Shown here piece after piece: positions 18,826 to 22,182 of a stretch of DNA of 34,159 bases. The notes under the pieces are model-generated. The model ran no database searches. It saw nothing but the letters and a program-made list of their open reading frames with translations, and was not told the DNA's origin. This DNA is from Clostridia bacterium (GTDB taxonomy: Bacteria; Bacillota; Clostridia; Peptostreptococcales; Acidaminobacteraceae). Made by a program: the position numbers and the translations under genes. Every line of letters begins with the position of its first letter. The stretch's first letter is position 1. The stretch covers positions 1 to 34,159 of the forward strand of contig JAFGVN010000059.1 of NCBI GenBank assembly GCA_016937975.1, written 5' to 3'.

Positions 18826-19647
18826 ATGGTAGATTGGATTTCGAATTTTACACCTGTAGAGCAGGCATTATTCGCAACACTATTTACGTGGGGTGTAACA
18901 GCACTGGGTGCTGCCTTGGTATTTTTCTTTAAATCCATTAACAAGACTGTTTTAAACGGTATGTTAGGTTTTGCTGCTGGGGTTATGATTGCAGCAAGCT
19001 TTTGGTCTTTATTGGCACCTGGGATTGAAATGGCAGAAGAGTTAGGACAAGTTGCTTGGTTGACAGCTGTGATTGGATTCTTAGGTGGTGGAGCATTCCT
19101 ATATGGTGTAGATAAGGTGTTGCCCCATTTACATTTGGGATTGGAAACAAATCAAGCGGAAGGGATCAAGACCAGTTGGCAAAGAAGTGTACTGTTAGTT
19201 CTTGCAATAACCCTTCACAATATTCCAGAGGGTCTTGCAGTAGGTGTTGCCTTTGGTGCTGTTGCTGCAGGCTCAGGGGGAGCTACTATAACTGGTGCTA
19301 TTGCATTAGCCATTGGTATTGGGTTGCAGAACTTTCCTGAAGGTGCGGCGGTTTCAATTCCGCTACGCCGAGAAGGCTTTTCAAGAACAAAAGCTTTCCT
19401 TTACGGTCAGGCAAGTGGCATAGTTGAACCTATAGCAGGTGTATTAGGTGCCTTTGCAGTGATTAAGATCAAACCTATTCTACCTTACGCTTTGGCATTT
19501 GCAGCAGGGGCAATGATTTATGTTGTCATTGAAGAATTAATCCCTGAAGCCCAACTGGAAGAAGGCGGTTCAAAAACGGATATTGCTACCATTGGTTCAA
19601 TGATTGGTTTTGCTGTTATGATGTTACTAGATGTTTCTTTAGGATAA
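18826..19647 (+). CDS. ZIP family divalent metal transporter
   Basis: A 273-aa membrane protein of the ZIP family (GufA-like branch), probably importing zinc or other divalent metals. Eight hydrophobic segments are visible. The two metal-site signatures are H131-N-I-P-E135-G in helix IV and Q168-N-F-P-E172-G in helix V, followed by [15 protein letters not shown], also conserved in this branch. AAGGAGG lies inside the end of the upstream gene, eight bases or so before the ATG. The loop between helices III and IV lacks the long His-rich stretch of eukaryotic members. A terminator follows. Metal specificity cannot be read. Confidence 0.92.
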
Positions 19648-19660
19648 GTACTTTATGATG

Positions 19661-19687
19661 AAGTCATCACTTAAGTGGTGACTTTTT
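19661..19687 (+). terminator. Rho-independent terminator after ZIP gene
   Basis: AAGTCATCAC (19661-19670), TTAA loop, GTGGTGACTT (19675-19684), then TTT. One G-U pair in a 10-bp stem. Confidence 0.88.
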
Positions 19688-20148
19688 GCATGTGCATCGG
19701 TTTTAAAGAAGGAGATCATGATGGTGTGCTGTAATTTTGTATAAATAAGTGTTTATTTTCATAATTATAATGGCATGAAAGTATAGAATTGGTTAAATGT
19801 ACTCTGTATTTTTGAATTTTCACTACTTTAATATACTTTTAACAGAGTTTCCTTGGAAAATGAATATTCTTGTGAAAACGCTTCCTTGAGAAAATGGAAA
19901 TAAAAGCAGCAAAACCATTAAAAAACCTTTAAAAATCATGCATAATTGGCAATTGGATTATGCATGCCGTTAAAAGTTAAATGAGAATGTTTTTCTTTTA
20001 AAATTGTTAATCTATTAACAATTCTCAGTATGAATTGAAATTTCAACAAAAAATATATTTCGTGAACAAAAATAATAAAAAGTTAATTGTTCAGAATTTT
20101 CAAATAATTGAAAGTTCAAAATAACTTTATGTATTTTTAATAAATGTG
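19688..20148. promoter_or_regulatory. Long intergenic region dense in inverted repeats
   Basis: About 460 bp with no supported gene. It holds a perfect 10-bp inverted repeat CATGCATAAT/ATTATGCATG (19937-19946/19957-19966), an exact Rex-type box (20004-20021), a 12-bp palindrome TTGAAATTTCAA (20035-20046), TGAACAA/TTGTTCA (20063-20069/20087-20093), and GAATTTTCAA/TTGAAAGTTC with one mismatch (20094-20103/20108-20117). Most lie 60-200 bp upstream of the promoter of the next operon, so the stretch looks regulatory. Confidence 0.5.
20004..20021. promoter_or_regulatory. Rex-type redox operator
   Basis: TTGTTAA-TCTA-TTAACAA matches the Rex repressor consensus TTGTTAAnnnnTTAACAA at all 14 fixed positions. 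Rex senses the NADH/NAD+ ratio in Gram-positive bacteria. The box is about 130 bp upstream of the -35 of the small-protein/permease operon; a weak promoter (TTGTTA, 19 bp, TATGAA at 20029) overlaps it. Function is inferred from the match. Confidence 0.6.
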
Positions 20149-20183
20149 TTGACTTTAAAATTTAGAGGCGTATACTGAACAAC
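20149..20183 (+). promoter_or_regulatory. Promoter of the small-protein/permease operon
   Basis: TTGACT (20149-20154), 16-bp spacer, TATACT (20171-20176). Start expected near 20183, about 23 bases before the ATG at 20206. Confidence 0.78.
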
Positions 20184-20205
20184 GGATTCAAAAAAGAGGT
20201 GGAAT

Positions 20206-20412
20206 ATGAAGGCTTTTAAAGAATTAGCGAAAAATTTTATCGCTTTGGCGTTGTTTGTAGTTTTGTGTTTATTCATTGATCAGATGACACCAGATAAAGA
20301 TGTTCATGCATATAGGTCAGCACAATTCTATGGGCTGAAAGATTTTAACTTGGAACAAAATTCGTCATATGAGGCGGATCAAAATAAATTTTGGGGTATC
20401 CCATCATTATAG
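20206..20412 (+). CDS. Small single-pass membrane protein, unknown
   Basis: A 68-aa protein. A basic N-terminus (MKAFKELAKNF) leads into one hydrophobic helix (IALALFVVLCLFI, residues about 12-24), then a polar, aromatic-containing tail of about 43 residues that by the positive-inside rule should be outside. GAGGTGGA sits just before the ATG and a strong promoter lies 30 bp upstream, so it is a real gene. It ends nine bases before the permease gene and shares its promoter. It could be an accessory or regulatory subunit of the permease; I recognise no family. The helix could also be an uncleaved signal, as no clear cleavage site follows. Confidence 0.7.
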   Translation: MKAFKELAKNFIALALFVVLCLFIDQMTPDKDVHAYRSAQFYGLKDFNLEQNSSYEADQNKFWGIPSL

Positions 20413-20421
20413 GAGATTGTT

Positions 20422-21693
20422 ATGTTTAATCATTTAACTTTAGCGATTAGTATATTTGTCTTAACTTATGTTATTATTATGTCAGAGAAAATCAATAGAA
20501 CTGCTATAGCGATGTTTGGAGCTGTTTTACTGCTTTTATTTAATATTGAATCTCAGGAAATGGCTCTAGAACATGTGGATTTTAATACAATTGGTCTTTT
20601 AATTGGTATGATGATTATTGTTAACATCATGAAAAAAACAGGGATTTTTCAATATATTGCAATTGTTTCAGCAAAATTTGTTAAAGGTGAACCATGGAAG
20701 ATTATTGTAATATTTTCAATAATTACAGCCGCGTCATCCGCTTTACTGGATAACGTAACAACAATACTTTTGATTGTTCCTATTACTTTAGTTATTACTG
20801 AAACTTTAGGTGCAAATCCAATCCCTTTTCTAATCCCATTAATTTTAATGGCAAACATAGGTGGTACAGCAACGTTGATCGGTGATCCACCTAATATTAT
20901 GATTGGTTCAGCAACGGGACTAGGCTTTCTAGATTTTATTCAAAATATGACACCAATCACTATTGTAATTTTTATAGTAACTTTGTTTTTGTTAAAATTG
21001 ATTTATAAAAAGGATTTAAATGCTACAGAAGAACAAAAGGCAAAAATAATGGCTTTGAATGAAGCTTTGGCAATTAAAGATAGAGCATTGTTAAAGAAAA
21101 GTTTATTTGTACTGTTTTTAACTGTATTCGGGTTTATGTTTCATCAATCGTTTGGTTATGAATCGGCAACAGTTGCATTATTTGGGGCAGGATTACTGCT
21201 TCTTTTATCAAAGATAGATCCTGAAGAAATACTGCTCGAAGTTGAATGGCCAACAATATTTTTCTTTACTGCCTTGTTTATTCTGGTAGGAGGTCTAGTA
21301 GAAGTTGGTGCAATTGATTTCCTTGCAGAAAAAGTTTTGGCGATTACTCATGGCAATATGGTTATGACAATGTTGTTAATTTTATGGGGAGCAGCGATTG
21401 CTAGTGCATTTTTAGATAATATTCCGTTTGTAGCAACTATGATTCCGTTAATAAAGAGTATTGGAGCAATGTCAGCAATAAGTATAACACCTCTTTGGTG
21501 GGCACTTGCATTGGGAGCTTGTTTGGGAGGCAATGGTACCTTGGTTGGAGCATCTGCAAATGTTATAGTAAGTGGTATGTTGGAAAAGAAAGGTAGAAGA
21601 ATTGGTTTTCTGAATTATATGAAAATTGGTTTTCCTTTAATGATTATCTCTATTGTTTTATCAACAGTATATCTTTTGATATTTTATGTTTAG
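20422..21693 (+). CDS. ArsB/NhaD-type ion transporter (probable Na+/H+ antiporter)
   Basis: A 423-aa polytopic permease of the ion transporter superfamily that includes NhaD, ArsB and the P protein. About eleven helices. Hallmarks: GGTATLIGDPPNIMIG with G154-D-P-P-N158 in the first half, and the pseudo-symmetric DNIPFVATMIP and GACLGGNGTLVGASANVI in the second half; both half-repeats carry the expected polar breaks for substrate binding. AGGAG lies before the ATG. Neighbours are a small membrane protein upstream, a soluble protein downstream and then the V-type ATPase operon, which favours a Na+/H+ antiporter over arsenite or dicarboxylate transport; no ars genes are nearby. Substrate remains an inference. 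Confidence 0.85.
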   Translation: MFNHLTLAISIFVLTYVIIMSEKINRTAIAMFGAVLLLLFNIESQEMALEHVDFNTIGLLIGMMIIVNIMKKTGIFQYIAIVSAKFVKGEPWKIIVIFSIITAASSALLDNVTTILLIVPITLVITETLGANPIPFLIPLILMANIGGTATLIGDPPNIMIGSATGLGFLDFIQNMTPITIVIFIVTLFLLKLIYKKDLNATEEQKAKIMALNEALAIKDRALLKKSLFVLFLTVFGFMFHQSFGYESATVALFGAGLLLLLSKIDPEEILLEVEWPTIFFFTALFILVGGLVEVGAIDFLAEKVLAITHGNMVMTMLLILWGAAIASAFLDNIPFVATMIPLIKSIGAMSAISITPLWWALALGACLGGNGTLVGASANVIVSGMLEKKGRRIGFLNYMKIGFPLMIISIVLSTVYLLIFYV

Positions 21694-21702
21694 GAGGAAT
21701 AT

Positions 21703-22182
21703 ATGAGAAAATTGATAAATGCAGAAGTTCTGGAGCACTCAATGAAATTACAACAAATGGGTGGGAAGATTAATATTGTCAATAGTAAGCTATGTTATGT
21801 CAGCTTTGATATAAGTGGATTTGAGCTGATGTATGTTTACAACATTAATAAAAAGGGAAACTATTTTTTAGAAAGAATCAAACCATATCCATTGCCATTA
21901 AAAGAGTTTGAAAGTGAAAATGACGTAGTAGATATCATTGCTATTGATTTGGAGCAGTTTAAAAACGCTATAAAAAGCCATCACTCAAGTGAGTTTGTGG
22001 ATGCAGGTAGAATGCTTATTGAAGTACTAAAGAAATTCGAAGATCTATATCTCTATTATAATATTTCTACTGAACATATGAATGAAATGATGAATCAATT
22101 AAATAAGTTTGCTGAGCAAATTAAACAAGTGAAATCTGAATCGGAAAGATTATATTTTAAAAAAGAACCAGAAAATTTATAA
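21703..22182 (+). CDS. Uncharacterised soluble protein linked to the antiporter
   Basis: A 159-aa protein without signal or transmembrane segment. The first 70 residues look like a mixed beta fold (GGKINIVNSKLCYVSFDIS, FELMYVYNINKKGNYFLERIKPYPLPL). The remainder is helical, ending in a likely coiled coil (MNEMMNQLNKFAEQIKQVKSESERL). AGGAGG precedes the ATG. It starts nine bases after the permease stop and is followed at once by a terminator, so it is the last gene of a three-gene unit. It may regulate or link to the permease; no family recognised. Confidence 0.65.
   Translation: MRKLINAEVLEHSMKLQQMGGKINIVNSKLCYVSFDISGFELMYVYNINKKGNYFLERIKPYPLPLKEFESENDVVDIIAIDLEQFKNAIKSHHSSEFVDAGRMLIEVLKKFEDLYLYYNISTEHMNEMMNQLNKFAEQIKQVKSESERLYFKKEPENL

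Follow-up and report, generated by a model that had tools for sequence, protein, structure and literature searches.

A candidate Rex operator upstream of an ArsB/MamN-like permease operon in a clostridial genome

Results

We analysed a stretch of 34,159 nucleotides (the window; contig JAFGVN010000059.1 of assembly GCA_016937975.1) from a member of the Clostridia placed in the Acidaminobacteraceae. The candidate operator described here sits within 558 bp of intergenic DNA that separate a gene for a ZIP-type metal transporter, which ends at 19647, from an operon encoding a small protein, a permease and a 159-aa protein, which starts at 20206 (Table 1). The G+C content of this intergenic stretch (19648-20205) is 26%, against 34.4% for the window, and an RBS-like AGAGGTGG lies ahead of the ATG at 20206. 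Downstream of the operon we recognized by eye a V-type ATPase-like operon, in which the c-type subunit was confirmed by Pfam.

Measured against the ArsB, MamN and CitMHS permeases of the ion transporter superfamily, the permease passes the Pfam models, with a full-length match to CitMHS (321.6 bits) and scores above the cut-offs for ArsB (65.9 bits versus 22.2) and Na_sulph_symp (80.8 bits versus 27), and it stays below the NCBIfam cut-offs, both for its best model, MamN (235.6 bits versus 500), and for the ArsB-type (cut-offs 415-760) and DASS (198.6) models. Profile searches with the permease found the ArsB and VcINDY structures. The sodium/proton antiporters NhaD and NhaB, which we take to belong to the same broad superfamily, gave weak, partial matches below all cut-offs: 28.6 bits for NhaD_1, where a score of 80 marks the NhaD family, 26-30 bits for two NCBIfam NhaB models (cut-offs 640-826), and 26.2 bits over 54 residues for Pfam NhaB, a narrow miss of its cut-off of 27. 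An earlier interpretation made from the DNA letters and their open reading frames (hereafter the sequence-only reading) had described a small-protein/antiporter operon; a small-protein/transporter operon does follow the box, but given these scores the label "antiporter" is best replaced by ArsB/MamN-like permease.

The two other products of the operon have no Pfam or NCBIfam family. The 159-aa protein, which gave weak, scattered Pfam matches only, has its gene next to that of the permease in all 26 loci from relatives (L016-L041) and in 12 of 80 named loci; its structure is predicted with confidence (mean pLDDT 87.5) and found no match in the PDB at E <= 0.001. It is a conserved orphan partner of the permease. 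Conservation is poor for the 68-aa protein. In one genome (G005, locus L020) the permease gene follows one for a weak relative that ends in KFWGVPLI, the two small proteins having a similar KFWG(V/I)P tail, and another weak match to the 68-aa protein lies near the permease in locus L028.

Table 1. Features of the intergenic region and the operon, in window coordinates
Feature	Position	Strand	Basis or remark
Inverted repeat, 10-bp perfect arms CATGCATAAT / ATTATGCATG, 10-nt spacer	19937-19966	.	Second strong repeat; not Rex-like
22-bp palindrome enclosing the candidate Rex operator	20002-20023	.	10-bp perfect arms, 2-bp centre
Candidate Rex operator, 18 bp, exact TTGTTAAN4TTAACAA	20004-20021	.	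Consensus match; matrix ranking
Weak possible promoter, TTAATC-16-TATGAA, overlapping the Rex box	20007-20034	+	7/12; putative, by eye, below scan threshold
12-bp palindrome TTGAAATTTCAA	20035-20046	.	Near chance
Overlapping short inverted repeats, TTTCAA-ATAA-TTGAAA and TTGAAAGTTCAA	20098-20119	.	Near chance
Best predicted operon promoter, TTGACT-16-TATACT, sigma-70-like	20149-20176	+	10/12; consensus match only
68-aa small protein, first operon gene	20206-20412	+	One likely N-terminal membrane helix (by eye)
423-aa ArsB/MamN-like permease (CitMHS)	20422-21693	+	
159-aa conserved partner protein	21703-22182	+	

The sequence TTGTTAATCTATTAACAA agrees with the Clostridia Rex consensus at 14 of 14 fixed bases, and with this the claim of the sequence-only reading that TTGTTAA-TCTA-TTAACAA is exact at all fixed positions is borne out. 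The box forms the core of the palindrome AATTGTTAAT-CT-ATTAACAATT. It is the single exact copy of the consensus in the 4.03-Mb assembly, in which the reversed control pattern has none. Markov models of order 1-4, built on 131,641 bases of the same genome, predict 0.0014-0.0021 exact matches by chance per window, in good agreement with an earlier guess of about one in a thousand, and 0.16-0.25 per genome; under an order-1 model of the 558-bp intergenic stretch, 0.00015 exact boxes are expected there. Inexact matches tell a different story by number, since the genome holds 14 places with at most one mismatch versus 10 for the reversed pattern, and 111 versus 133 with at most two (111 in 4.03 Mb corresponds to about 0.008 expected per 300 bp). 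A broader Rex pattern, TTGTKAN6TMACAA, shows no excess in this genome either (6 places versus 9 reversed), and a scan for the CRP/FNR-like TTGTGAN6TCACAA with up to three mismatches returned 32 matches versus 31.8 expected by chance. By count alone, the Rex motif is not clearly over-represented in the genome, and the case for the Rex box therefore rests on its context.

The sequence-only reading had made its proposal depend on the presence of a Rex gene, and the genome encodes a clear one (NCBIfam Rex equivalog NF003990, 338.9 bits versus a cut-off of 233). We examined all 13 other places with one mismatch, which fall in 12 stretches, together with rex. Four of the 13 lie ahead of hydrogenase genes: two at 81 and 230 bp from the start codon of a first [FeFe]-hydrogenase operon (NuoE-like, NuoF-like and [FeFe]-hydrogenase genes; L006), one at 55 bp from that of a second [FeFe]-hydrogenase operon (L008), in which the third gene, truncated where the stretch ends, has a group A6 NADH-dependent hydrogenase as its best model, and one at 221 bp from that of a TM1266-hydE-hydG-hydF operon (L007). 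One of these hydrogenase boxes, TTGTTAATCTAATAACAA, is a single base away from the window box, spacer counted. Boxes with two mismatches are found 58 bp before the ATG of rex, where the TTGACA half doubles as a strong -35 element (11/12), and 130 bp before the ATG of rnfC. The remaining nine of the 13 places either fall inside open frames or at their margins or have neighbours with no evident redox function; one of the nine separates a gene judged Lrp-like by eye from a sodium:solute symporter gene. Because a clear Rex occurs together with boxes of one or two mismatches before rex, two NADH-linked [FeFe]-hydrogenase operons, TM1266-hydE-hydG-hydF and rnf, a Rex regulon exists in this genome.

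A matrix built from the six boxes before rex, the three hydrogenase-related operons and rnfC, with the window site excluded, placed the window box top among all 18-mers of 151,144 bases, a sample chosen around candidate boxes, so that the result is a ranking and not a genome-wide test. The genome scan for Rex sites that had been suggested as a check cuts both ways: boxes turned up before classic targets, and inexact matches did not clearly outnumber those of the control. The contig of the window agrees with other stretches of the assembly in G+C content and tetranucleotide usage (r 0.80-0.91). A stretch of Fusibacter ferrireducens reaches 0.84 in the same tetranucleotide comparison, and the agreement therefore argues against foreign DNA, yet would fit DNA from a close relative too.

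The geometry of the gap places the Rex box at a considerable distance from the operon, its end lying 184 bp from the ATG at 20206 and 127 bp from the -35 element of the best predicted promoter, which would be too far upstream for simple occlusion of that promoter. The promoter itself is a weak call, as a scan found five promoter-like sites versus 5.2 in shuffled sequences. In the TM1266-hydE-hydG-hydF operon, a TTGATT-17-TATGAT site overlaps the Rex-like box, and the geometry of the weak possible promoter at 20007-20034 could resemble this arrangement of box and -10 element.

The sequence-only reading had further counted at least four more inverted repeats within 180 bp around the box. This holds loosely, but just one of them, at 19937-19966, stands out beside the Rex box, and the rest have 6-bp arms. 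The two repeats with 10-bp perfect arms are 65 bp apart, and two or more such repeats occurred in none of 300 shuffles. When every repeat whose arms reach 6 bp or more is counted, there are four in 19930-20130, Rex box included (matched by 29 of 300 shuffles), and seven in 19648-20205 (matched by 19 of 300), a mild excess at most. There was no sign that the intergenic stretch belongs to a repeat family; among up to 10 candidates scored per genome, its best further similarity in the genome covers 53 bases at 19877-19933 (E 8e-5).

Across 61 genomes, this one included, we found 11 exact boxes in 10 genomes, versus 3 for the reversed pattern. Three of the 11 fall within genes for nicotinate phosphoribosyltransferase (one assigned by model, two by likeness to it) and reflect coding conservation, and other exact boxes in relatives stand before rnfC, nadA, pyruvate carboxylase and malate dehydrogenase genes, with one lacking a clear target. 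Judged by these neighbouring genes, the exact motif does serve as a marker of Rex-type targets in this order. Within 600 nt ahead of orthologous permeases, however, the best matches to the Rex box resemble those of the reversed control, both in 24 relatives and in 80 named loci. The set of 24 leaves out L029 and L039, which have too little upstream DNA, and the weak homologues L042-L044; in the set of 80, which shares a few species with the former, the match start was taken as gene start and some loci offer fewer than 600 nt upstream. A match with two mismatches in L016 was rejected as support, as it sits, by eye, in an apparent terminator hairpin of the preceding gene, and it is still included in the counts for the 24 relatives. 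Because a box before the permease is not common to the relatives, the window site, if functional, is a local acquisition. In two genomes from another family of the order, exact Rex-consensus palindromes lie upstream of agcS-type amino-acid carriers, assigned by model in G050 (L053:3961-3978) and by likeness to it in G039 (L054:3973-3990), and an amino-acid carrier may be a further Rex target there.

Discussion

Rex, a widespread bacterial sensor of the NADH/NAD+ balance, binds DNA at low NADH/NAD+ and releases it as NADH rises. We propose that this repressor uses the palindrome at 20002-20023 as an operator. Rex would thereby lower expression of the small protein, permease and 159-aa protein when NADH is low, and at high NADH the operon would be released, as would those of the hydrogenases and Rnf. 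Given the 127 bp between the box and the best promoter, occlusion of the main promoter is less favoured than either of two other routes, namely that Rex represses a second promoter farther upstream, overlapping or preceding the box, or that it blocks transcription arriving from upstream. Binding of Rex at 20004-20021 is, in our judgement, quite likely, and we see in the window box a probable addition to the Rex targets. Control of the operon by Rex is less certain than binding, because the promoter is remote, orthologous loci have no such box, and deletion of rex in Caldicellulosiruptor bescii had a slight effect at a comparably placed box; on balance we lean somewhat towards meaningful control.

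Consensus sequences of the TTGTTAAN4TTAACAA type (TTGTTAANNNNTTAACAA) are ascribed to Clostridia or Clostridiaceae Rex in PMC8457756 and PMC9600882. The window box resembles these operators in its 14 fixed bases, its 18-bp length, its intergenic position, and the presence of Rex and of classic targets in the same genome. It differs from them in its distance from the predicted promoter and in preceding a permease operon, a type of gene that does not figure among the Rex targets, established or predicted, named in the available portions of these papers and of PMC6391272 (rex itself, hydrogenases, a hydrogenase regulator, hydG and rnf). Of the literature on Rex in connection with antiporters, sodium, MamN or permeases, the text consulted of PMC13077300 and PMC9600882 likewise showed no Rex-controlled permease of this type, which is no proof of absence. 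Rex regulons are described as highly variable (PMC8457756), and conservation upstream of orthologues is therefore not strictly defining for a Rex operator.

Distance from the gene has precedents in the same sources. A predicted Rex box lies 243 bp from a start codon (PMC9600882), and in C. bescii a top-scoring box located 181 bp before a CopG-hydG unit, close to the 184 bp found here, was bound in vitro (PMC6391272). The two cases differ in that the C. bescii box precedes a CopG-type regulator gene and hydrogenase maturation genes and is backed by a gel shift, whereas ours precedes a permease and is a sequence prediction. Deletion of rex in C. bescii changed expression behind the 181-bp box by a log2 value of only -0.21 to -0.27, and not upward as derepression predicts (PMC6391272). 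The C. bescii box is thus a fair precedent both for control of the operon and for a site that is bound but silent.

The latter outcome, in which Rex occupies the box with little or no effect on the operon as the working promoter at 20149-20176 is too far downstream, strikes us as rather unlikely, even though the spacing to the predicted -35, the lack of a box beside the permease in relatives and the slight response in C. bescii (PMC6391272) all speak for it. Against these points, the box of the TM1266-hydE-hydG-hydF operon, a classic Rex target, lies even farther from its ATG and is overlapped by a promoter-like site, which makes an upstream promoter plausible here as well, and the perfect 22-bp palindrome suggests upkeep by selection. 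The same palindrome, together with the very low number of exact boxes expected in the 558-bp stretch, weighs against a chance palindrome in AT-rich intergenic DNA that is used by no protein, or not by Rex. Such an origin would be in keeping with the number of exact matches expected per genome, the failure of matches with one or two mismatches to outnumber the reversed control clearly, and the absence of the box from relatives, but we regard it as improbable because the box scores highest in the regions sampled from this genome, which has a real Rex regulon, and because 61 genomes hold 11 exact boxes versus 3 controls, even if three of those 11 belong to one conserved coding gene.

That the palindromes are instead hairpins of a structured leader RNA, a riboswitch or attenuator for the permease operon and not protein operators, could be read from the predicted fold of the plus strand of 19925-20205, which is better than 200 of 200 shuffles (z -4.27). 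Any DNA palindrome, however, lifts the fold score on both strands; the opposite strand also gives a signal (z -2.66), and the plus-strand value falls to -2.18 once the two strong repeats are removed, so that much of the signal stems from the DNA palindromes themselves. Additionally, Rfam searches of the intergenic region returned 0 matches even at E <= 1, the matches listed from a comparison with 60 relatives are short, the best having an E of about 1e-4 over 26 bases, a scan found no terminator before the ATG at 20206, and the structure has the best promoter at its 3' end, all of which makes a leader RNA very improbable. Least credible of all is that another protein governs the operon through the repeat at 19937-19966, with Rex a minor or absent input: the pairing of two strong repeats, unmatched in the shuffles, would suit several regulators, but no known motif was recognized, short of a systematic search, in the second repeat, for which the matches listed in relatives are short and of low score.

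Should Rex control of the operon hold true, the genes under redox control in an anaerobe would come to include one for a membrane transporter, and for the permease and its orphan partner there would be a first hint, namely that both work as NADH accumulates, alongside the hydrogenases and Rnf. In line with the sequence-only reading, we hypothesize that ion transport may be under NADH/NAD+ control. It is tempting to go further and suggest, tentatively and with more doubt than confidence, that in this Fusibacter-family lineage Rex recently recruited the permease operon and the 159-aa partner by way of a remote operator, so that an ion or anion would be transported under the NADH signal that also governs the hydrogenases and the ion-pumping Rnf, perhaps with a second regulator acting jointly at 19937-19966.

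For Rex boxes that lie far upstream, start sites need to be mapped before a gene is called Rex-regulated. In the TM1266-hydE-hydG-hydF locus, the Rex box and the promoter-like site are followed by a leader of about 200 nt before the first gene (L007:3887-4126). Rfam gave no match to this leader, and at L007:4054-4077 it contains a hairpin resembling an intrinsic terminator, which may point to attenuation.
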